A DNA stretch of 64,000 nt from an uncultured Pelagibacteraceae bacterium (GTDB taxonomy: Bacteria > Pseudomonadota > Alphaproteobacteria > Pelagibacterales > Pelagibacteraceae), in contig CACGJS010000001.1 in NCBI GenBank assembly GCA_902573385.1, positions 1 through 64,000 on the forward strand. The letters run 5' to 3'. The notes beneath the pieces are model-generated. The model had not been told where the DNA came from. It searched no databases and saw only the letters and a list, made by a program, of their open reading frames with translations. A program made the translations under genes and the position numbers. Positions within the stretch are counted from its first letter, which is position 1. The number at the start of each line of letters is the position of its first letter. Positions 574 through 17,160 of this stretch are shown one piece after another.

Positions 574-1941
574 ATGAATATTCTTATATTAGATGTTTAT
601 CCTAAAACTACATACAGAATTTCCAAAGATCAAAATGGAGCTTATGGCACTGCTAATAATTATGGTGATGGATTTGTTGCTCAAATATTAAAAAGAATTG
701 TAAAAAAATCAATAGATTTCCCCCAACTATTTGTAGTACAGACGTGTGGGGAGCTTATGAATTTAGGCCATGAAGTTGATTATAGTACCGAACTTGATTT
801 AAATAAAGATTATGACCTTTATATCTTGCCATCATCAATAGTTTGTCATGAGACAGAATTGGAATACATAAAACTTTTAAAAAAAAATAATAAAAAAATA
901 ATAGTCATTGGTCCATTTGCAACATCAAATTTTCAACCGTATTTAAATGCTGGAGCGCACGTTATTAAGGGAGAACCAGAAATGTTTTTTCATAAATTTG
1001 ATAAAACCGTTAATGATCTAAATGATTTACCTGCCATCATTGAAAATTTTACTATTTTTCCACTTGATGAGTTAAATTTTCCTGGGTGGGAAGTTATTTT
1101 TAAAAAATATACTCCCCAAATGAAATTTATTGGAAGAGGGGCCGCAATAACAATTAATTCTTCAAGAGGGTGCCCATATTCATGTCAATATTATTGTGTT
1201 TATCCACTTCAGCAGGGCAGAAAATTAAGACTTAAATCACCTGAACGTGTAGTTGAAGAAATGATTCATTTCAAAAAAAATTTGAATGTGTCTAATTTTT
1301 TATTTAGAGACCCAGTATTTACCTTGGATAAGAATCATACAGAAGCTATATGTAAAGAAATTATTAAGTCTAAATATAAATTTAAAATCTGTGTAGAAGT
1401 TCATCTAAAAAATATTGATGAAAATTTAGCAAAAATTATGAAAGAATCAGGAATTAATCTTATGTATGTTGGTATTGAGTCTGGTGATGAGGAAGTAAGA
1501 GATGATGCGAATAGAACCTCTGAAAGTAATTTTAATCAGGTAACTAAAGTAAAATTTTTAGAAAAATTAGGAATTAGAGTTAAGGCAATGTATATTTTAG
1601 GCTTACCAAAAGATACTTCTCGTACTTTTAAACAAACAGTTAAATATGCAAAAAAAATTAAATCTTCCTATGCTCAATTTAGTGTTTTTACACCTTATCC
1701 AGGTACTCCAATTTATAATGAATATAAAGATAAAATTAATGTAAAATATTTTGAAAATTTTACTCAGTGGGAATTAGTATTTGACCATCCAAATTTTAAA
1801 ACAAGAGAAGTTACAGATTTGTTAAATTATGCGTATAAGGAATATTATTTAAATCCTAAATGGATTATAAAGTTTATATTAGATAGAATAAAAGATATTT
1901 ATGAAGGTATTAATAACAGGTTATTCAGGTTTTCTAGGTAG
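574..1941 (+). CDS. Cobalamin-binding-type radical SAM protein with non-canonical CX3CX3C motif
   Basis: RGCPYSCQYYCVYPLQQGRKLR cluster motif, N-terminal Rossmann-like domain (DQNGAYGTANN, SSIVCHETE), GIESGDEE, FTPYPGTPIYNEY. Paralogue of 12311..13654. Confidence 0.85.
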   Translation: MNILILDVYPKTTYRISKDQNGAYGTANNYGDGFVAQILKRIVKKSIDFPQLFVVQTCGELMNLGHEVDYSTELDLNKDYDLYILPSSIVCHETELEYIKLLKKNNKKIIVIGPFATSNFQPYLNAGAHVIKGEPEMFFHKFDKTVNDLNDLPAIIENFTIFPLDELNFPGWEVIFKKYTPQMKFIGRGAAITINSSRGCPYSCQYYCVYPLQQGRKLRLKSPERVVEEMIHFKKNLNVSNFLFRDPVFTLDKNHTEAICKEIIKSKYKFKICVEVHLKNIDENLAKIMKESGINLMYVGIESGDEEVRDDANRTSESNFNQVTKVKFLEKLGIRVKAMYILGLPKDTSRTFKQTVKYAKKIKSSYAQFSVFTPYPGTPIYNEYKDKINVKYFENFTQWELVFDHPNFKTREVTDLLNYAYKEYYLNPKWIIKFILDRIKDIYEGINNRLFRFSR

Positions 1942-2707
1942 TTATCTTTGTGAAAATTTATCAAAAAATTTTCAAATAATAAAAGTAAATTTAAGAGAAA
2001 TACCTGAAGAAAATTCAAGTTCATTTAATACATTTCTTGGTAGGTTTTTAGATGCAGATGTAATAATTAATTGTGCCGCCAACCTTAAGCCAAAAACAAA
2101 AAAAGATATATTTATAAACGAAAATTTTCCAAAAAATTTGTTAGATTATTTGAAAAAAAAAGAGAAAAAACCTTTTTTTATTCACATAAGCAGTATTAAT
2201 GTCCTGGTTAATGATAGAAAAGATTATTACACAATAACAAAAAAAAATGCAGAAATAAATCTAAAGAGTCAAAATATAGCAATTATTAGATTACCTCTAG
2301 TATATGATAAGATTAATAATATTATTCAAGCAACTGGAAATTTTAAATTAATAGAACGTTATTTAAATTTAAGATATTTACCTATTTATCCAATGATTTT
2401 TCCAGGCCATATTCATTATCCAGTTGAAATTAATAAAATTTCAAATTTTATAGAAAAAATTATCAATAACGGAAATTTAGGCCGTTCAATTTATAATATT
2501 GCAGGCAGTGATAAAAAAAGTTTATGGGATTTAATTCAAGAAATGGCTTTATATAAAAAAAAAAGATTATTAAAAATTAATTTTCAAATATTAAATAAAA
2601 TTTTACCAAGCTTCATTAAAAAAATTTTAATTAAAAATTCATCAATACTTCAACAAATAATAGTTATCGACCATACAAAATACAAAGAAGAAAAAGAATA
2701 TTTATAA
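1901..2707 (+). CDS. NAD-dependent epimerase/dehydratase (extended SDR)
   Basis: N-terminal MKVLITGYSGFLGSYL (GxxGxxG Rossmann), YYTITKKNAE (YxxxK). Overlaps the upstream CDS by 41 nt. Confidence 0.8.
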   Translation: MKVLITGYSGFLGSYLCENLSKNFQIIKVNLREIPEENSSSFNTFLGRFLDADVIINCAANLKPKTKKDIFINENFPKNLLDYLKKKEKKPFFIHISSINVLVNDRKDYYTITKKNAEINLKSQNIAIIRLPLVYDKINNIIQATGNFKLIERYLNLRYLPIYPMIFPGHIHYPVEINKISNFIEKIINNGNLGRSIYNIAGSDKKSLWDLIQEMALYKKKRLLKINFQILNKILPSFIKKILIKNSSILQQIIVIDHTKYKEEKEYL

Positions 2708-2719
2708 TTTTATAATAAT

Positions 2720-3814
2720 TTAATTAGATTTCCAAATCCATGTTTTGGAAATCATGTATTTAAATATTGTGTCTAAGATAACACCTATTAAAGATGCATA
2801 AAGTGGATTTTTTGTAATTAAGTTAAAAGCTAAACTTGCAGATCCTATACTTGCAATAATACCAGGCAGATTAATTAAATAATATTTTGTTAAATTTATT
2901 ATTAATTTATTAAGTGAATTTGCACGGTTGTCGTAGAAGTTCAAATAATTATTTGCTAGGAAATTTATTGTAGCAGTAAAAAGAGTTGCAAATAAATGAC
3001 TTATATAAAAAGATACGTCTGCTAAATAATACATTCCAAATAAAATACTAAAATGAAATATAAAACCAATGCCTCCAATAATTATAAAACCTATAAATCT
3101 AGAAGAAATCATTCCATTAAACATATAAGATAATATTTGTGTAATAAAAGAAAATGCAACTTGTGAATTTAATTTTGAAGATCCATCGGTTCTAGACTCA
3201 AATTTAATTTCCTTTTCAATAATCTTAATTTTTTTTTTTTTATTTGAAAAAATAAGATCTAAAAGTACTTTAAATCCAGAATTAGCCAATAAAAAAAATT
3301 TTTTATTAAGCAAAGATACTTTTCCAGCGAAAAAACCAGTTAGAGGGTCTGATATATTTGTAGATAAAATTAATTGTAAAAATTTGTTAAAAAATTTACT
3401 TAGAAATAATCTTTTAGCAGAAATTACATCCATTTTTTTTAAATTTCTTACTCCAATGACAAGGTCATTAGCTTTAAGTTCATTAATTAAGTAGTTTATT
3501 TCAGAGGCTGAATGCTGTCTATCTCCATCCATTACAACAAAATATTCCCCCGTCATTGATTGAAGCCCAAATTTAATACTTTGAACTAAACCTTTATCAC
3601 TTTGTCTTTGAAAGAGTCTTACTTTTTCATTTTTATCAAATTTTTCCAAAATATTATTAACAGTAGAGTCTGTAGAACCATCATCCACTATTATAATTTC
3701 ATAATCTTTTTCCTTCATTTCAGATATGATCTCACTAATTAAAATAACAATATTATTCTCCTCATTTAGAGTTGGTATAATAATAGATATTTTTTCAGGT
3801 ATAAATTTTCTCAT
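2720..3814 (-). CDS. DPM1-type family 2 glycosyltransferase with C-terminal GtrA-like membrane domain
   Basis: SIIIPTLNEENNI, IIIVDDGSTDST, VVMDGDRQH, then a four-TM GtrA-like C-terminus (FIIIGGIGFIFHFSILFGMYYL...). Confidence 0.85.
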   Translation of the reverse strand: MRKFIPEKISIIIPTLNEENNIVILISEIISEMKEKDYEIIIVDDGSTDSTVNNILEKFDKNEKVRLFQRQSDKGLVQSIKFGLQSMTGEYFVVMDGDRQHSASEINYLINELKANDLVIGVRNLKKMDVISAKRLFLSKFFNKFLQLILSTNISDPLTGFFAGKVSLLNKKFFLLANSGFKVLLDLIFSNKKKKIKIIEKEIKFESRTDGSSKLNSQVAFSFITQILSYMFNGMISSRFIGFIIIGGIGFIFHFSILFGMYYLADVSFYISHLFATLFTATINFLANNYLNFYDNRANSLNKLIINLTKYYLINLPGIIASIGSASLAFNLITKNPLYASLIGVILDTIFKYMISKTWIWKSN

Positions 3815-3823
3815 ATTTTTTTA

Positions 3824-5236
3824 CTAAGTGTTAAGCTTAGAGTGCAATTCATCTGCCAATCTTAATGATAATTGTATGATTGTATATGTTGGGTTTGTAT
3901 AACCGCCAGTTGTAAAGTTTGAACTTCCGGCAATATAAAGATTATTAATGTCATGTACTTTTAATTTTGAATTCACAACTGATATAGACTTATTTATTCC
4001 CATATTAGTACCTCCTAAATGATGATAACCTCCCATGTTTTTAAAATCATCTAAATTATATATATTTTCTTTAGCAGCTATTCTTCCAAGGTCTTCTTTA
4101 ATACAGAAATTTCCAAATTCTTCCAAAAAAGTTTTAGCAGCTAAAAGAGATTCTTTTGATTTATTATAAAACAAATTAACTACTGGTATATTTAATTTAT
4201 CTCTTTCATGAGGATCTAATTTAATTCTATTGTTTTTACTCGGTGGCTCTTCTATATTCATAAAAATATTTCCACATTTTAGGTCTTTTTTAAAAATTAG
4301 ATGAGCAATTTTTTTTCCATATTCAGGCGCTATACAAAGAATATCTTTAATTATTTCTTTGTATAATTTTGTATCTTCTTTAGCATTCATATAAATTGCT
4401 GCACTCAATATTTTTTTTTCTTCTATTAAGTTTTTACTAGCCGCAAAATGTAAAGGACCATCATAATCTATAAATTGATCATTTAATTTACTTTTAAGTT
4501 TTTTTTTATTAATTAATCCTATTCCAGAAATTATCCAAGGGTGATTCATCCAATATTGGCCTACAGGTAGGTTTTTATTTATTAAGCTACCATTTTTCTC
4601 TTTAGTCCAAAGTAAAATTCTAGAATTTTCTATACCACCACAAGCTAAAATAAAATATTTAGATTTAATTTTTTTTGATGAATTATTAAATAAACATATT
4701 GCAGATTGTATTTTTTTTTCAGACCCTTCAAAATGTGATAGCTGACAATTTAGTATAAGGTGAATTTTTTTTGATTTTTCGATATAAGTCTTATATTTTT
4801 CTGCAAATCTTACAGTGGAATATTTAAATTCAATTTGATTAAAATAATTATTTAACTTAGTTTTTTTGAATTGGTTTTTTATGTTAAGTATAGAACAAGT
4901 TTTTGTATTATAAGGGTCTAGGTCTTCTTTTTTAATTGGCCAATTTTTAAAATTATATGCTTCCATTGGTTTAGACCATCCGCCCCAGTGTCCAGAAGTT
5001 CCACCTAATTGGCGTAGCCTACTAGAAGATAGATCTGCTATATTATCTCCAATAATTTTTCCATTATATTGATCCTGTGAATCTTCACTATATTCTGACT
5101 CACCAGCTTCTATTATTACTGATGAAATATTTTTTTTTTCTAGCTCTAGAGCAACGGTCATTCCAGCTGGACCACTCCCAAATATAACTACTGGGAAATT
5201 ATTAAAGTCAATATCTTGAAATTTTCGAAAAATCAT
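3824..5236 (-). CDS. GMC-family FAD-dependent oxidoreductase
   Basis: N-terminal VVIFGSGPAGMTVALELEK dinucleotide-binding motif, LGGTSGHWGGWS, C-terminal HHLGGTNMG and NLYIAGSSNFTTGGYTNPTYTIIQLSLRLAD. Confidence 0.85.
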   Translation of the reverse strand: MIFRKFQDIDFNNFPVVIFGSGPAGMTVALELEKKNISSVIIEAGESEYSEDSQDQYNGKIIGDNIADLSSSRLRQLGGTSGHWGGWSKPMEAYNFKNWPIKKEDLDPYNTKTCSILNIKNQFKKTKLNNYFNQIEFKYSTVRFAEKYKTYIEKSKKIHLILNCQLSHFEGSEKKIQSAICLFNNSSKKIKSKYFILACGGIENSRILLWTKEKNGSLINKNLPVGQYWMNHPWIISGIGLINKKKLKSKLNDQFIDYDGPLHFAASKNLIEEKKILSAAIYMNAKEDTKLYKEIIKDILCIAPEYGKKIAHLIFKKDLKCGNIFMNIEEPPSKNNRIKLDPHERDKLNIPVVNLFYNKSKESLLAAKTFLEEFGNFCIKEDLGRIAAKENIYNLDDFKNMGGYHHLGGTNMGINKSISVVNSKLKVHDINNLYIAGSSNFTTGGYTNPTYTIIQLSLRLADELHSKLNT

Positions 5237-9369: not shown

Positions 9370-10038
9370 CTACAATTTGTGAATATGAGCGTTGTATATT
9401 AAATTTAGATCGGATGATTTGATTTTTAATGGGTAAAAATTTTCTTCTAGTGAATTTTTGAAATGATGTCTTATAATTGAAATTAAATTAAAAATTGAAT
9501 TTACATGTTCTGTAGCAATCAAATAATCAAGTTCACTACCTACAGGATAATTTTTATTCTTTTGAAATAAACTTACAATTAATCTTCCGAGTCTCCATGC
9601 TATTCCAGGATCAGTAGGAAGGGATATAGATAACACTCCTCCTTTTTTTAATTTATTCATCATTTGGAATAAAAATTCTTCAGGTGATAAAATGTGTTCT
9701 AGACAATGTGATATAATTATACGATCAAAACTTTCGTCTGGATAAGGAAGTATTTTTCCATCATATATTTTATATTTAACTTTTGGATTTTCTTTATGAA
9801 AAGCTTCAGCATATTCTGAAGTTTCAGCAATATGGTATTCATTATATGAATGTTGAATAAAATTATAATGTGGAGTATCACCAGCACCTATTTCTAAAAT
9901 CTTATCATAATGGGAATTTTTTTTTTTAAACTTTTCTAAGTTTTTATGACCATAATTCATAAAAAAACCTTGCAAACCTACATAACAATGAGATTTATAT
10001 TTTTCTCCGAGTTTTTTAAATACTTCTTTTTTATACAT
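9370..10038 (-). CDS. Class I SAM-dependent methyltransferase
   Basis: YDKILEIGAGDTPHYNFI, YDGKILPYPDESFDRIIISHCLEHI (UbiE-like motifs). Confidence 0.85.
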   Translation of the reverse strand: MYKKEVFKKLGEKYKSHCYVGLQGFFMNYGHKNLEKFKKKNSHYDKILEIGAGDTPHYNFIQHSYNEYHIAETSEYAEAFHKENPKVKYKIYDGKILPYPDESFDRIIISHCLEHILSPEEFLFQMMNKLKKGGVLSISLPTDPGIAWRLGRLIVSLFQKNKNYPVGSELDYLIATEHVNSIFNLISIIRHHFKNSLEENFYPLKIKSSDLNLIYNAHIHKL

Positions 10039-10095
10039 TTCTATTAAAGGGTATTATATAAAATTTAAAAATAATTTTTTATTTATATAAGTCAA

Positions 10096-12237
10096 ATGAT
10101 ACAAAAAAAAAAGAAAAATTTATCTTTACAGTTCACATTTTTAGTGATTGCTTTTTTGTTCACATGGATGATTTTAGGATCCAAAAATTTAAATATATTT
10201 AATATAAATTGGACACTATATGATGATGCAACAACAGATTATTTAACTTGGATTTATTTTAAAAATGATATTTGGAGATTTCCGATAGTTGGTACAATTC
10301 CAAATTTTGGATTAAATGGAAATAGTACAATTGCAATTTCAGGCACTATTCCTTTTTTAGCTTTACTATTTAAACCATTAAAATACATAATAAATGATAA
10401 CTTTAATTATTTTGGTTTTTGGATTTTTTTGTGTTTTTTTTTACAATCATATATTTCATTTTTATTATTAAAAAAAATAACTAAAGATGAAATTTATTCT
10501 TTTATTGGCAGTATTTTTTTTAGTTTAAGTCCTATTTTCTTCAACAAAATAGGCTATCATTATGCATTAGCAGGTCATTGGATAATAATTTTATCTTTTT
10601 ATTTTTATTGTAATGAAAATTTAAACAAGAAATTTTCTTATAATATTTTTTTAATTTGTTTTTCTACTTTAGTTCATTTTTATTTTACAATGATGCTATC
10701 AATTATTTATTTTATAATTGTAATTTTTAATATTATTGAAAAAAAAAATTTATTATTTCATTTTAAAAAAGTTTTTCTTTTATTGATGATTATTTTACCC
10801 ACAATGTATATTGTTGGTTATTTTGCAATTCCAATGCAAGATACTCTCGGATACGGATATGGTTTTTATAAATTAAATATATTAGGACCAATAGACCCAG
10901 TTGGTGGAAATTTAAATGGTAATATTTTATGGTCAAGATTTATTTCAGATATACCTAATGCTACAGCAGGTGAATTTGAAGGCTTTAACTATTTGGGTTT
11001 AGGGCAGTTATTTCTTATAATTTGTGGAGCTTATTATTTTTTTAAAAATATAAAAAAAAGTGAAACAAGAAAATTTTTTCCATACTTTATAATTATTTTT
11101 ATTATGTTTTTATTATCAATTACTCATAAAGTTGATTTTGGAACTTATAATATAATTAGCTTAGATTTAAATAAATATGTTCTTGCGGCGCTTAGTTGGA
11201 TGAGAGCCTCAGGAAGATTTTTTTGGCCTATTTATTATTTCTTAATTTTTTTTTCTATCTTTATTATTTCAAAAAATTTTCAAAAAAAAAAAAGAATTTT
11301 ATTTTTAGCTATTTTACTATGTATTCAAATTACTGATATATCTCCAGGTTTGAAAAATTATTTATTTGGAAATTCTTTTAATAAAAAAGAATATAAATTA
11401 GAGGATCCAATTTGGAGCAAAATAAGTAATGATTATGAAATAGTTACTTCTACATACATTAAAAATGGGAGTAACGATTTTTTTAAAATAATTGGGTTTC
11501 TAAATGACTATACGCCTAAAACAGAAATTGCTTATTTGGCTAGATTTGATAGAGGGAAATTAATTGAAAATAGGTATAACAACTATAAAAATTTATATGA
11601 AAATAAAATAGATATTAAAAAATTTTATGTAATTAATAACCATGGCCATTTAAATCATTTAAAATTTCTTACAAAAAATAGCAAACATGCAATTTTAAAG
11701 CGAAATGATATTTGGTTATTGCTTCCTGATAAGTTTGAATTAATGAACGAAAAAGATTTTTTTAACCTTAAAAAAGTTGAAATGAAAAAGTTAAACTTGA
11801 ATAATAAAATTAATTTTACTTATAACTCTTTAAATGAATATTTAAGTATATTTGGACTTGGATGGACATACGATTTGTCTTCAAATGGTATTTGGACAGA
11901 TGGAAATAACTCAACAATTTTATTTAATGTTGAGACACTTTCTGAGGGAATTTATTTTATTGAACTTGAGATAATGCCAAACCTATTAAAACCCGATCAA
12001 ACAATCGAATTATTAATTTATGGCCAGGGGATATCTAAAAAAAAAATTAAATTTGATAATTTAAATAATTTTAAAAATAAAATAATAGTTAAATTTGATA
12101 AAAAAAAAATAATTGATGAGAAATATTTACTTTTAAATTTAAATATAAGTGGAGCAGTTTCAGCCCTTGAAGTAAGAAAAAGTCCCGATGTTAGAAAACT
12201 AGGTTTAAAAATAGACTCGCTAAAAATTACCAATTAA
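10096..12237 (+). CDS. Large polytopic membrane protein, GT-C/YfhO-like, possible sugar transferase
   Basis: 713 aa with many TM helices in the N-terminal ~400 aa and a soluble C-terminal domain. YDDATTDYLTWIYFKNDIWRFP is reminiscent of GT-C/DUF6311-type proteins. Confidence 0.6.
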   Translation: MIQKKKKNLSLQFTFLVIAFLFTWMILGSKNLNIFNINWTLYDDATTDYLTWIYFKNDIWRFPIVGTIPNFGLNGNSTIAISGTIPFLALLFKPLKYIINDNFNYFGFWIFLCFFLQSYISFLLLKKITKDEIYSFIGSIFFSLSPIFFNKIGYHYALAGHWIIILSFYFYCNENLNKKFSYNIFLICFSTLVHFYFTMMLSIIYFIIVIFNIIEKKNLLFHFKKVFLLLMIILPTMYIVGYFAIPMQDTLGYGYGFYKLNILGPIDPVGGNLNGNILWSRFISDIPNATAGEFEGFNYLGLGQLFLIICGAYYFFKNIKKSETRKFFPYFIIIFIMFLLSITHKVDFGTYNIISLDLNKYVLAALSWMRASGRFFWPIYYFLIFFSIFIISKNFQKKKRILFLAILLCIQITDISPGLKNYLFGNSFNKKEYKLEDPIWSKISNDYEIVTSTYIKNGSNDFFKIIGFLNDYTPKTEIAYLARFDRGKLIENRYNNYKNLYENKIDIKKFYVINNHGHLNHLKFLTKNSKHAILKRNDIWLLLPDKFELMNEKDFFNLKKVEMKKLNLNNKINFTYNSLNEYLSIFGLGWTYDLSSNGIWTDGNNSTILFNVETLSEGIYFIELEIMPNLLKPDQTIELLIYGQGISKKKIKFDNLNNFKNKIIVKFDKKKIIDEKYLLLNLNISGAVSALEVRKSPDVRKLGLKIDSLKITN

Positions 12238-12310
12238 AATTCTGTATATTTCCTAAATTAAATAATATAATGGATATAATTTGATAACAGTAAAATAGCA
12301 AAACCTTAAT

Positions 12311-13654
12311 ATGAAAATTTTTATTTTTGATCCATATAAGAGTGGAAATTTTAAGATAAACAAAGATCAAGCAGGAGGTTATGGCACATCTAACGAGATA
12401 GGGAATAATATTTTTTCATTAACTTTAGCGGCATTTTTAAAAAAAAATATAAATTATGCTCCTATGTTTGCAATTTATACATTTGCTGTATTAAAAAATA
12501 AAGGTTTTGATGTTGAATATACAAAAAGTTTTAACGATATTAAAAGCTGTGATTTATGTTTAGTGACTTCATCAATAGTCTGTCATGAAACAGAAATATA
12601 TTATTTAAAAAAACTAAAAGAACAAAATATTTATACAGGTGTTATAGGATCTTTCTGCACTACATTACCGGAACCTTATCTAAAAGAGTCTAATTTTGTT
12701 GTAAGTGGAGAACCTGAGTTTTTTTTTCTTAATGAAGAAGTGAAAAAAATTATACATGAAAAACGATCTGGTATTTTAAAAAATATAAATAATAATAAAC
12801 TTGATGATTTACCATATCCATCTTGGGAGCAAACTTTTAAATACGGCGGTCCAAGAGCTTTTTTTATTTCTTTATTTAGAAAAACTATTCCAATTTTATA
12901 TACCCGAGGCTGCCCATACTCTTGCTTTCATTATTGTACATATCCTACTCAACAAGGTAGAGCAGTTAGAAGAAGGTCAGTTGAAAACTTGATTGGGGAA
13001 ATTAATTTTTGGGCAAAAAAATATAATATTAAAAATTTTCTTTTTAGAGATCCAGTTTTTTCTATAAATAATAAAGTTACACTTGAAGTGTGTAAAAAAA
13101 TAAAAGACTCTGGACTTAAAATAAAATTTGGTATTGAAACACATCTAAATAATATATCTTTAGATTTAGCAAAGGAACTTTACGATTGTGGCCTTCGATA
13201 TGTAGAAGTTGGGATCGAGTCAGTAACTGATGAAGTAATTACTGCGTCTAAAAGATTTTCTATCGAAAAAGAAAAACAAATCAGTTTAATTAAAAATATT
13301 GAAAAAATTGGAATAAAAATAAAAACTATGTTTATTTATGGTCTTCCACTTGACGATCTAGAAACTTGTCAAAATTCTTTAAATTTTGCAAAAAAAATTA
13401 ATTCATCATACAGTCAATATAATATTTTTACCCCTTATCCTGGAACTCCAATATATAAAGAATATCAAAAAAAAATAATGTCAAATAAATATGAAGATTT
13501 TTCACAATCCAATTTAGTTTTCACGCATGAAAAATTAAGTAAGCAAGACCTATCAATGATGATAAGTAAAAGTTATAGAGATTATTATTTACGCAAAGAG
13601 TATTTTATAAAAATGTTTAAAAATTTTTTTAAACAAATGTCTATTAACATTTAA
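12311..13654 (+). CDS. Cobalamin-binding-type radical SAM protein with CX3CX3C motif; paralogue of 574..1941
   Basis: TRGCPYSCFHYCTYPTQQGRAVR, KDQAGGYGTSN, SSIVCHETE, NFLFRDPVF, FTPYPGTPIYKEY. Confidence 0.85.
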   Translation: MKIFIFDPYKSGNFKINKDQAGGYGTSNEIGNNIFSLTLAAFLKKNINYAPMFAIYTFAVLKNKGFDVEYTKSFNDIKSCDLCLVTSSIVCHETEIYYLKKLKEQNIYTGVIGSFCTTLPEPYLKESNFVVSGEPEFFFLNEEVKKIIHEKRSGILKNINNNKLDDLPYPSWEQTFKYGGPRAFFISLFRKTIPILYTRGCPYSCFHYCTYPTQQGRAVRRRSVENLIGEINFWAKKYNIKNFLFRDPVFSINNKVTLEVCKKIKDSGLKIKFGIETHLNNISLDLAKELYDCGLRYVEVGIESVTDEVITASKRFSIEKEKQISLIKNIEKIGIKIKTMFIYGLPLDDLETCQNSLNFAKKINSSYSQYNIFTPYPGTPIYKEYQKKIMSNKYEDFSQSNLVFTHEKLSKQDLSMMISKSYRDYYLRKEYFIKMFKNFFKQMSINI

Positions 13655-13658
13655 ATAA

Positions 13659-14378
13659 ATGAGTATATCAGTAATTATTCCATGTTTTAATTCTGAAAAA
13701 TATATCTTAAAAAATATTGTAAAATTAAGAGACCATATAAATAAGATAAACTACAAATATGAAGTTATCATTATAGATGATTGTAGTATTGATAAAACTT
13801 ATGAAGTTGTAAAAAATTTTATAATTAAAAATAAAAATATCAGAATATATAAAAACTATTCAAATAAAGGTAAATCATATTCATTAATTAGAGGAATAAA
13901 AAAATCTAAATTTAATAAAATAATAATTATAGACTCAGATCTACCTTATTTTTCAAAACTAAATATTTTAATTAAAAAATTGAGTCATTATGATTTTGTT
14001 TTTATAGATAGAGGACATAAAAAAAGTAAAAATATTGAAAAAAATAAAAGTATTTATCAAATTACAAGAGCATCAATCGGTTATTTCATTAATTTAATTA
14101 TTAGAAATGTATTTTCTATAAAAATTAGGGATACCCAAGCTGGATTGAAAGGATTTATTAAGCCAAAATATTTTTCAAAATTGAATTTTTTTTCAAAAAG
14201 ATTTTTTTTCGACTTAGAGCTATTATTGTATTTTATATCAAAAAAAAAAAAATTATTTTCAATACCAGTATTATTTAAAGTACCAACAAACTCTACTATT
14301 AAAATTTTTAGTTTTAAAAAAAATTTTGAAGTTATTAAAGAACTTATTATTATCTGCTTAAAAAAAAAATATAAATGA
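13659..14378 (+). CDS. DPM1-like family 2 glycosyltransferase
   Basis: MSISVIIPCFNSEKYI, YEVIIIDDCSIDKTYE, IIIDSDLPY, RDTQAGLKGF. Confidence 0.85.
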   Translation: MSISVIIPCFNSEKYILKNIVKLRDHINKINYKYEVIIIDDCSIDKTYEVVKNFIIKNKNIRIYKNYSNKGKSYSLIRGIKKSKFNKIIIIDSDLPYFSKLNILIKKLSHYDFVFIDRGHKKSKNIEKNKSIYQITRASIGYFINLIIRNVFSIKIRDTQAGLKGFIKPKYFSKLNFFSKRFFFDLELLLYFISKKKKLFSIPVLFKVPTNSTIKIFSFKKNFEVIKELIIICLKKKYK

Positions 14379-15262
14379 AAAGATTAATAATTAATTGTGA
14401 TGATTTAGGGATTTCAGAAGAGACTAATTTAGGAATTATAGATTGTTTATTTAATAAAAAAGCATCCTCAGCATCAATAATTGCTAATGGAATTTTTTTT
14501 AATCATGCAATAAAAAATATTAAGAATAAAACACCAGATAATTTTTTTGGTATACATTTAAACTTAACTGAAGGTTCAGCTTTGAGCAGTGATAGCTTGG
14601 AACTTCTAACTGACGAAAAGTTTAATTTTAATTACAAACCTTCTTCTTTTTTTTTAATGAATTTACATAGAAATAAAATGATTGATGACTTAATTTATTT
14701 AGAATTTAAAGCTCAAATAATTAAAGTTTTAAATGAAGGAATTAAAATTTCTCACTTTGATAGTCATGAACATATTCATCATTCACCATTTATATATAGA
14801 ATTTTAAAAAAACTTGGTAAGGAATTTGGGATTAATAAGATTAGATTAGTTAAAGAATCAATTGTATTGAAAAATTTATTTAAAGATTTTAGTCATAAAT
14901 TTGTTTCAAAAAATTATGTTAAATTATTTTTATTAAACTTTTGTTCTAAAAGAATTCAAAATAATTTTTTTTTATCACCAAATTATTTTTATGGAATATT
15001 GAATTCTGGAAAAATTGATAGAGATGAGTTTTTTCTATACCTTAATAATATCAAACAGGATAGCGTAACTGAACTTTGTATTCACCCTGCTAATGAATTT
15101 GTTTTTTCAGAAAGCAAAAAGAATGAATTTTCTTACAAAAAATTTACTTATAGTCAAAATAGATTGTATGAAAAAAAGTTATTATTTTCAGAGGAGTTTC
15201 AAAAAAATTTAGAAGATCAAAAGGTTAAATTAATTAATTATACTAACCTATCTTTTATATAA
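14375..15262 (+). CDS. YdjC/ChbG/HpnK-family carbohydrate deacetylase
   Basis: MKRLIINCDDLGISEETNLGI, FGIHLNLTEG, ISHFDSHEHIHHSP, ELCIHPANE metal-binding/active-site motifs. Start overlaps the upstream GT stop. Confidence 0.85.
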   Translation: MKRLIINCDDLGISEETNLGIIDCLFNKKASSASIIANGIFFNHAIKNIKNKTPDNFFGIHLNLTEGSALSSDSLELLTDEKFNFNYKPSSFFLMNLHRNKMIDDLIYLEFKAQIIKVLNEGIKISHFDSHEHIHHSPFIYRILKKLGKEFGINKIRLVKESIVLKNLFKDFSHKFVSKNYVKLFLLNFCSKRIQNNFFLSPNYFYGILNSGKIDRDEFFLYLNNIKQDSVTELCIHPANEFVFSESKKNEFSYKKFTYSQNRLYEKKLLFSEEFQKNLEDQKVKLINYTNLSFI

Positions 15263-15295
15263 AAATTATTCCAATTATTGATTAAATTTTTAATT

Positions 15296-16867
15296 TTATT
15301 TTACTATTTCAGCTCTGGCGCTTTTTTCAACATTGGTGTGGTTTTTTCTTGCTATTTGATAAAAAGCAGGTTTTGGTGGTCGATTGTTAAAATCATATTG
15401 TGGCCAACGTTCCTTAGCATAGTAAATGGATTTACTTTCCTCACTATTACCTGTTGTTGGCAAAAGATAAAATCTTAATGCATAATACGCATCCCAAAAA
15501 AATTCTCCAGTTCGAATTCCTCTTATGATACGTCGTATTATAAAATTAGGATTAAAAAGTATGCATTGTAAGAAAAATTTTTTCATATATTTTTGAATGA
15601 TATCAAAGCTAAGATTTTCGTGAGCAAATAAATCTTTTGCAGTATAAATCATATACTCATCCCAATCGTATGAACGTATAAGTCCTTTATTGACATAATC
15701 ATTAAACATTTTAGTTCCTGGAAAAGCAATACAGATGCTAGCTTTCATCATATCTACAGGAATTGTTCGAGCAAAATCAATAGTCTCTTGCATAGTTTTT
15801 TCTGTATCAGCAGAAAGTCCAACCATAAAATAACCATTACTGTCTATTCCTGCTTTCCTAGCCATACGCACAGCTTTTGTGGCTTGCTCTACTGTAGCTC
15901 GACCACCTTTACCAAATGCTTTTAATACTTCATCACTACCTGACTCAAATCCAAATGAGACACGGTAGCATCCTGATCTACGTAAAGATTTAAAAAGATC
16001 ATCATCAGCACTTTCCACACGAATACCATTAGTACATGTCCAAACCATATCAACACCAGAGTCATAAATCTTATCACACACTTTTCTTGCCCATTTTTGA
16101 TCAGAAGTGAAGATATCATCTGCTAGCATAAATTCTTTGTACCCAAGCGATTTTAAATGTTTTATTTCTTCTACACAACGTTCAGGTGATTTTTTACGAT
16201 ATCCAAGACCTAATGAAATTTTGCTTGCACAAAAATCACATTTATATACACAACCACGAGAAAATTCTACTGTACTCATTGGAGTTCTTCTACATAGTAG
16301 ACGAGATATCGTATGATAGTCTTTTACATCATAAAGATGCCAAGCAGGCATTGGCAATTCATCAAGATTTGTAATTAGTGGACGAGTGCCAGTTGAAAAA
16401 ATTTTTTCATCTTCTCGGTAAAAAATACCTTTGATTTCAGATAAAGGCATACCGTCACAAAGATCACCAAAAGTATAATCAGCTTCACCAACAAGTACAG
16501 CATCAAGCATAGTTTCTTGAAGTGTTTCTTCTGGTAAAGCACTTGGATGTGGTCCTCCACCAACTAAAAAAATGTTCTTAGAAATATCTTTTATTAAAAC
16601 ACTTATATCACGTAACTGATTCATTAAAGGAGTAGTTCCAGTAATTCCAACAATGTCAGGTTTAATTTTTAGAACAAGATTACGAATTAGCTCATAATCA
16701 TATGGTCTCCATGACATGTCTAATATTTCTACTTCGTGTCCTCTTTCTAAAGCTACAGCAGCAATTGTAGCCAATCCTAAAGTAGGATAAATTGGATTGA
16801 CTACAGCAACTTTAGTTCCACCATAGCTAGGAGTGTAAGAAGGATTGATTAGTAAAATTTTTGCCAT
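15296..16867 (-). CDS. B12-binding-domain radical SAM protein (BchE/HpnJ-like), canonical CX3CX2C
   Basis: MAKILLINPSYTPSYGG...PTLGLATIAAVALERGHEVEILDM (cobalamin-binding fold), VGGGPHPSALPEE, SRGCVYKCDFCASK, SFGFESGSDEVLKAFGKG. Confidence 0.88.
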   Translation of the reverse strand: MAKILLINPSYTPSYGGTKVAVVNPIYPTLGLATIAAVALERGHEVEILDMSWRPYDYELIRNLVLKIKPDIVGITGTTPLMNQLRDISVLIKDISKNIFLVGGGPHPSALPEETLQETMLDAVLVGEADYTFGDLCDGMPLSEIKGIFYREDEKIFSTGTRPLITNLDELPMPAWHLYDVKDYHTISRLLCRRTPMSTVEFSRGCVYKCDFCASKISLGLGYRKKSPERCVEEIKHLKSLGYKEFMLADDIFTSDQKWARKVCDKIYDSGVDMVWTCTNGIRVESADDDLFKSLRRSGCYRVSFGFESGSDEVLKAFGKGGRATVEQATKAVRMARKAGIDSNGYFMVGLSADTEKTMQETIDFARTIPVDMMKASICIAFPGTKMFNDYVNKGLIRSYDWDEYMIYTAKDLFAHENLSFDIIQKYMKKFFLQCILFNPNFIIRRIIRGIRTGEFFWDAYYALRFYLLPTTGNSEESKSIYYAKERWPQYDFNNRPPKPAFYQIARKNHTNVEKSARAEIVK

Positions 16868-17083
16868 ATATAAGATTAGTTTTATAGGAGATAAAAAATT
16901 TTTTCAATTATAATGTAAATATTAAGGTTTTCGAATTGTAAATTTTTTAAATTAAAAAGAGTTTTTTTATATAAATTTAATAGATTTAGATTTTGAAAAC
17001 TATTTAATAAGCTTCTGTAGAAGTTATAGTGGTCAAATAATATTTTTTAAAAGTTGCATAAAACAAAAAAGTAAAGTTGTAAT

Positions 17084-17160
<77 letters not shown>

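Follow-up and report, generated by a model that had tools for sequence, protein, structure and literature searches.

A genomic island at a tRNA-Met gene of a SAR11-type bacterium carries an AprD4-like radical-SAM protein and may edit a lipid-linked surface sugar

Which product do six clustered genes of an uncultured Pelagibacteraceae bacterium make, and what does their radical-SAM (S-adenosylmethionine) enzyme do to a sugar? The question is raised by the first 64,000 nucleotides of contig CACGJS010000001.1 (assembly GCA_902573385.1), the whole stretch analysed, which is called the window here. A sequence-only reading had placed at 9370-16867 a pathway remodelling a lipid-linked sugar, with features of hopanoid (HpnI/K/J) and lipid A (Arn) modification. 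All six genes which it named were found to be open reading frames (ORFs), the Pfam assignments support them, and the block coincides with a genomic island. We consider, with about an even chance of being right, that the island is a surface-glycan modification cassette, in which a three-component lipid-carrier glycosylation system is joined by a deacetylase and a radical dehydratase as auxiliary enzymes and the product is a deoxy-amino sugar. The key enzyme is the 447-amino-acid CX3CX3C protein, not the B12-type one. The features of the island are the following.

9370..17083, no strand: the complete island, an insert that separates the stop of the transaldolase gene from the 3' end of tRNA-Met (1-6 bp between the two in nine relatives of the same genus; gene order compared in 16 relatives).
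9370..10038, (-): class I SAM methyltransferase (PF08241, 39.8 bits).
10096..12237, (+): DUF6311 multi-pass protein, probably a glycosyltransferase of GT-C type whose C-terminal domain resembles carbohydrate-binding ones (PF19830, 133 bits).
12311..13654, (+): AprD4-like radical-SAM protein with CX3CX3C, which probably dehydrates a 1,2-diol of a sugar (AprD4 101.6 bits; model pLDDT 90.5; match to AprD4 6fd2; shared motifs).
13659..14378, (+): family 2 glycosyltransferase (GT2), related to polyprenyl-phosphate sugar synthases (RDTQAGLKGF motif; PDB matches; a 51% identical gene in the genome L066).
14375..15262, (+): YdjC-family carbohydrate deacetylase (PF04794, 146.8 bits), overlapping the GT2 stop by 4 bp.
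15296..16867, (-): B12-binding radical-SAM protein with CX3CX2C (PF02310 and PF04055; best NCBIfam scores far below the cut-offs).
17084..17160, (-): tRNA-Met, whose 3' end is the right edge of the island.

The cluster motif of the 12311-13654 protein is CPYSCFHYC. A model of it was built from a 25-sequence alignment, and the top PDB matches of this model were the two chains of an AprD4 structure containing the substrate paromamine (6fd2; E 1.6e-25 and 9.4e-25, TM 0.79 and 0.78). The next match had an E of 6.6e-17 and the later ones a TM of 0.65 at most. The protein and AprD4 have in common the CX3CX3C spacing and the motifs CPYxCxxYCxYP and FRDPVF, whereas HpnJ (that of a Mycetohabitans plasmid, L145) has the canonical CX3CX2C and FDDDTF. 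In the tree one branch sets the CX3CX3C proteins apart from the others (support 93/79; 73/59 in the reduced set), and in the reduced tree AprD4 joins them at 88/87. A Streptomyces clavuligerus sequence lacking a usable cluster motif was left out of the second tree.

About 60 relatives of this protein were obtained from a scan covering about 85,000 species genomes. They belong mostly to marine bacterioplankton (SAR11, Prochlorococcus single cells, Methylophilaceae with the strains KB13 and LSUCC0717, Thiotrichaceae, a Dadabacterium and others), they have the rare CX3CX3C spacing of AprD4, and nearly all have FRDPVF. The gene of a short-chain dehydrogenase/reductase (SDR) or epimerase-type oxidoreductase directly adjoins that of the radical-SAM protein at 35 of the 60 loci, compared with 10 of 82 control positions on the same contigs (p 6e-9, the tests being uncorrected for relatedness). 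Similarly, a GT2 gene lies at most two genes away at 25 of 60 loci (7 of 82 control positions) and a large multi-pass membrane protein is encoded nearby at 35 of 60 (16 of 82). By Pfam, adh_short was present in 18 of 91 neighbours and did not figure among the most frequent families of 90 genes farther away; one distant gene, the YdjC gene of L066, was omitted from this control set, and the YdjC count is therefore not a fair comparison. At least three distinct types of SDR could be distinguished, each paired with different radical-SAM subclades. A YdjC gene stands directly upstream of the radical-SAM gene in the unrelated lineages L085 (Dadabacteria) and L099. Four Prochlorococcus single-cell contigs (L102, L105, L107 and L122) carry a CX3CX3C subclade of their own (100/100) together with an SDR, which suggests either transfer among marine bacterioplankton or contamination of the single cells.

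AprD4 works with an NADPH-dependent reductase, AprD3 (PMC5461906). Since the 12311 protein is AprD4-like and its relatives are paired with an SDR, dehydration or deoxygenation is by analogy its likeliest chemistry, rather than a ring contraction of the HpnJ type. The likeness to the AprD4/AprD3 pair (apramycin and tobramycin; 3'-deoxygenation of paromamine) covers the fold, the cluster spacing, FRDPVF, the SDR-type oxidoreductase beside the radical-SAM gene in most relatives, and probably also the substrate, as the island enzyme would act on an amino sugar from which a deacetylase has removed the acyl group. In contrast to that pair, the island protein is far below the AprD4 cut-off, its SDR is not adjacent in the window, and it is found in a glycan context with lipid-carrier enzymes, not in an antibiotic cluster.

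On what carrier would such a sugar be held? In the PDB, dolichol-phosphate mannose synthase (5mlz) and GtrB (5ekp) belong to the best matches of the GT2, with a plain GT2 scoring similarly. The overlap of the GT2 stop with the YdjC start, which the sequence-only reading had noticed, was confirmed and consists of an ATGA. The YdjC protein belongs to its superfamily (the cut-off of PF04794 is 29.7 bits), and D9, D10, H61, H131 and H135 are conserved in an alignment with HpnK and other YdjC proteins. The best matches of the DUF6311 model (pLDDT 66.5, modest quality) were the STT3/OST catalytic subunits, with AftA and DPY19 lower, and its C-terminus gave many matches to carbohydrate-binding modules (CBMs). 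Another family of multi-pass proteins, of about 610 amino acids, was noticed near the radical-SAM genes of L062, L090, L094, L097, L120 and L123; the two members tested had no Pfam match, and the family may be an undescribed one of GT-C type.

Among the relatives, L091, L120 and L123 have the gene of a DprE1-like oxidase directly after the radical-SAM gene, its start overlapping the latter, and in L091 and L120 an SDR gene follows. The DprE1-like scores were 340 bits (L091) and 307 bits (L120), the cut-off being 500. DprE2 was considered for the SDR and rejected, as NCBIfam gave no DprE2 among the best matches in L091 and L120; in L187 a DprE2 match remained below the threshold (64.4 against 250). 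It is possible that this arrangement represents a new polyprenyl-phospho-pentose branch. Because DprE1-like, GtrA/DPMS, UbiA-type and GT-C-like neighbours occur in the relatives, which point to polyprenyl-phosphate donors, the remodelling of a sugar on a lipid carrier, followed by its transfer by a membrane glycosyltransferase, is the best reading of the island. Alternatively, the dehydratase and the SDR would act on a nucleotide sugar or on the finished glycan, and the GT2 and the DUF6311 protein would just build the surface glycan. The same gene set fits this, the substrate of AprD4 itself is a soluble pseudodisaccharide, and a conventional polysaccharide cluster including nucleotide-sugar epimerases lies upstream of pntA in relatives; the neighbours just named favour polyprenyl-phosphate donors, however, and we regard the alternative as unlikely, though by no means negligible.

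The lipid-carrier reading brings the island close to three-component glycosylation, in which a lipid-linked donor, a flippase, a GT-C enzyme with a CBM and auxiliary epimerases are combined (PMC11127046). As in the GtrA/GtrB/Gtr systems and those of polyprenyl-phosphate pentofuranose (GT136), a GT2 of the polyprenyl-phosphate type would serve a GT-C-like transferase with a CBM-like tail, and auxiliary sugar-modifying enzymes, SDR or DprE1/DprE2, are present in both; the island differs in having an AprD4-like radical-SAM protein and a deacetylase of YdjC type among its auxiliaries and in that there is no flippase gene inside it. With ArnC/ArnD/ArnT (aminoarabinose of lipid A) it shares the logic of first deacylating a carrier-bound sugar and next having a membrane enzyme transfer it. 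The Arn-like assignment itself failed: the GT2 reached 31.9 bits where the ArnC cut-off is 529, the deacetylase is of YdjC and not of NodB/ArnD type, the membrane protein is DUF6311 and not ArnT/PMT, and Arn has no radical-SAM step. Of the earlier proposal, the idea of a sugar remodelled on a lipid carrier and transferred by a membrane protein is supported, while the HpnJ and Arn assignments are not.

Candidates for the reductase partner are present in the window and in L066. In the latter an SDR gene overlaps the start of the orthologue of the 12311 gene; the nearest candidate in the window stands in a second glycan cassette at the start of the contig (1-5236), with the following members.

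574..1941, (+): a further radical-SAM protein with CX3CX3C, sharing 41% identity with that of 12311-13654, in a starred subclade of its own in the tree.
1901..2707, (+): extended-SDR oxidoreductase, AprD3-like candidate partner (PF01370), overlapping the 574 radical-SAM gene.
2720..3814, (-): GT2 carrying a membrane domain of GtrA/DPMS type, probably a polyprenyl-phosphate sugar synthase that includes a flippase-type domain (PF00535 and PF04138).
3824-5236: GMC-type oxidoreductase.

The 1901-2707 protein is the nearest match in its own genome (33%) to the SDR of L066, and judging from this similarity it could serve the 12311 enzyme too.

The gene content, the island, the AprD4-like fold and motifs and the repeated company of SDR, GT2 and multi-pass membrane genes are established. 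From them we infer a scheme in all its particulars: that a lipid carrier is used, which sugar it bears, how the steps follow one another, what reaction takes place and that DUF6311 acts as a GT-C enzyme. The GT2 would load polyprenyl phosphate with a sugar of the N-acetylhexosamine type, from which the YdjC enzyme would take off the acetyl group. The AprD4-like enzyme would then abstract a hydrogen and eliminate water from a 1,2-diol in this amino sugar. The resulting keto-deoxy sugar would have its ketone reduced by an SDR (1901-2707 here, the adjacent one in L066). After flipping, the GT-C-like DUF6311 protein would move the deoxy-amino sugar to a surface glycan, perhaps following an O-methylation by the 9370 enzyme.

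Several observations weigh against this scheme. Its main gaps are the missing local flippase and the non-adjacent SDR: the island contains no flippase, neither as an ORF nor with room for one, the GtrA domain at 2720-3814 being outside it, and no SDR gene lies directly beside the 12311 gene in the window. The DUF6311 model is of low confidence, and DprE1-like neighbours are limited to three loci. YdjC genes lie near the radical-SAM gene in few loci only and are absent from most relatives; therefore, deacetylation would be no general step. The activities are predictions from what the genes, folds and motifs resemble, and the 12311 protein had 111.5 bits for NF033070 (AprD4), whose cut-off is 500. 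Since the placement of AprD4 in the tree is unstarred and not decisive, and a clade with HpnJ was not rejected (p-AU 0.22 in the approximately unbiased, AU, test), the protein is called AprD4-like and not an AprD4.

This last result also bears on the idea that the CX3CX3C protein catalyses a different radical reaction of the lipid-linked sugar, either an epimerisation or a ring contraction similar to that of HpnJ. HpnJ is a related radical-SAM enzyme which works on a glucosaminide after a glycosyltransferase and a YdjC deacetylase, and some relatives of the island protein stand beside DprE1-like oxidases, which have a known role in epimerisation. The cluster spacing, FRDPVF and the best fold match are nevertheless those of AprD4 and not of HpnJ, and HpnI/K/J are described without a reductase partner whereas the present genes keep one. 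We find this idea distinctly unlikely, and dehydration remains preferred.

In the formation of paromamine before AprD4 the order is glycosyltransferase, deacetylase, radical-SAM enzyme. The same order is followed by HpnI, HpnK and HpnJ (PMC12583986), and we propose by analogy that the island may be its third instance. The likeness to the HpnI-HpnK-HpnJ route (bacteriohopanetetrol cyclitol ether) ends with that order and the YdjC type of the deacetylase, as the island has no hopanoid genes, its GT2 received no HpnI call, and it adds a GT-C-like protein and an SDR partner. The deacetylase reached 114.4 bits for HpnK (TIGR03473, cut-off 232.6), and for HpnJ (TIGR03471, cut-off 577.6) the 12311 and the B12-type proteins reached 133.5 and 188.2 bits. 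The latter had been taken as the HpnJ counterpart; it is encoded on the opposite strand, and the radical-SAM protein coupled to the GT2 and the YdjC enzyme is the one at 12311. For the B12-type protein, membership in HpnJ was rejected on the score, while a distant kinship was not excluded by AU tests (p 0.365). The sequence-only reading had seen no squalene-hopene cyclase in the block, and the genome-wide search found no PF13243 in the source genome, which is 61% complete and limits statements of absence accordingly, and a single weak match in 147 genomes of the family, so the plain hopanoid pathway is disfavoured. In spite of the weak HpnJ and HpnK similarities, we give it practically no credence.

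Are the six genes one unit at all? The source organism is apparently a member of the SAR11 group; among full-length relatives from the named collection, Pelagibacteraceae predominate, and the sampled genomes of the family are of about 0.5-1.6 Mb. In the same genus the gene order is pntA-pntB-transaldolase-tRNA-Met-TrcR-suhB-efp. In the window the stop of the transaldolase gene is separated from the 3' end of tRNA-Met by about 7.7 kb, taken up by the six genes, where the nine relatives mentioned above have 1-6 bp. Since three relatives hold other genes there, the site is a hotspot; one of them (L158, 6986-13716) has a different cassette with a carbamoyltransferase and glycan-type genes. Site-specific integration at the tRNA-Met gene with duplication of its 3' end was rejected, as neither a second copy of that end nor a flanking repeat was found at the island. 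A phage origin was rejected too, with zero relatives in the phage collection and none confirmed among viral contigs.

The gene set is more than a chance grouping because it is largely conserved, though rearranged, in L066, a metagenome-assembled genome of Pelagibacter. The identities between the window and L066 are 81% for the B12 radical-SAM protein, 64% for the CX3CX3C protein and 51% each for the GT2 and YdjC proteins; a DUF6044 multi-pass membrane protein takes the place of DUF6311. Beside the L066 set, at 834-2234, a tyrosine integrase with an Arm DNA-binding domain was observed. It could be argued that the island is an assortment of glycan genes forming no single pathway, the B12 radical-SAM protein and the methyltransferase being especially unrelated: both are on the opposite strand, the former has a GC content of 0.34 compared with 0.17-0.26 and is more conserved than its neighbours, and the hotspot holds other cassettes in relatives. 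However, both radical-SAM genes travel with the GT2 and YdjC genes in L066, and GT2, YdjC and DUF6311 were found together again in L151, so that we see a small chance for an assortment.

In a wider reading, which we hold tentatively and somewhat short of an even chance, deoxy sugars would be made widely among marine bacteria by a route so far unreported. The sugar would be deoxygenated while attached to polyprenyl phosphate, by a radical-SAM diol dehydratase together with an SDR; this would bypass the deoxygenation of nucleotide sugars and feed GT-C transferases that vary the surfaces of SAR11 and other marine bacterioplankton. SAR11 are among the most abundant cells of the sea. Surface glycans readily suggest themselves as phage receptors, yet little is known of the sugars on these cells. 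No report of radical-SAM enzymes in SAR11 glycan clusters was found in the open-access literature. If the proposal for the island is true, a radical enzyme editing a lipid-linked sugar would be a new auxiliary step for three-component glycosylation, AprD4-type chemistry would have a natural function beyond the antibiotic clusters, and one could predict from genomes where marine surface glycans contain deoxy sugars. If the wider reading holds as well, the logic of glycosyltransferase, deacetylase and radical-SAM enzyme would be found in three settings, i.e. hopanoids, aminoglycosides and surface glycans.

For the two remaining genes of the island only tentative roles can be suggested. The methyltransferase at 9370 possibly acts on the glycan. 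The B12 radical-SAM protein at 15296, which no other part of the island equals in conservation when the window is compared with L066, perhaps carries out a C-methylation. Its orthologues in L184 and L185 (48-49% identical) are encoded near UbiA and GtrA genes, and a relative in L187 has an SDR, a DprE1-like oxidase and an ArnC-like GT2 encoded in its vicinity. A distant relative of the GMC-type oxidoreductase of the contig-start cassette was also observed near the orthologue in L184 (1122-2774).

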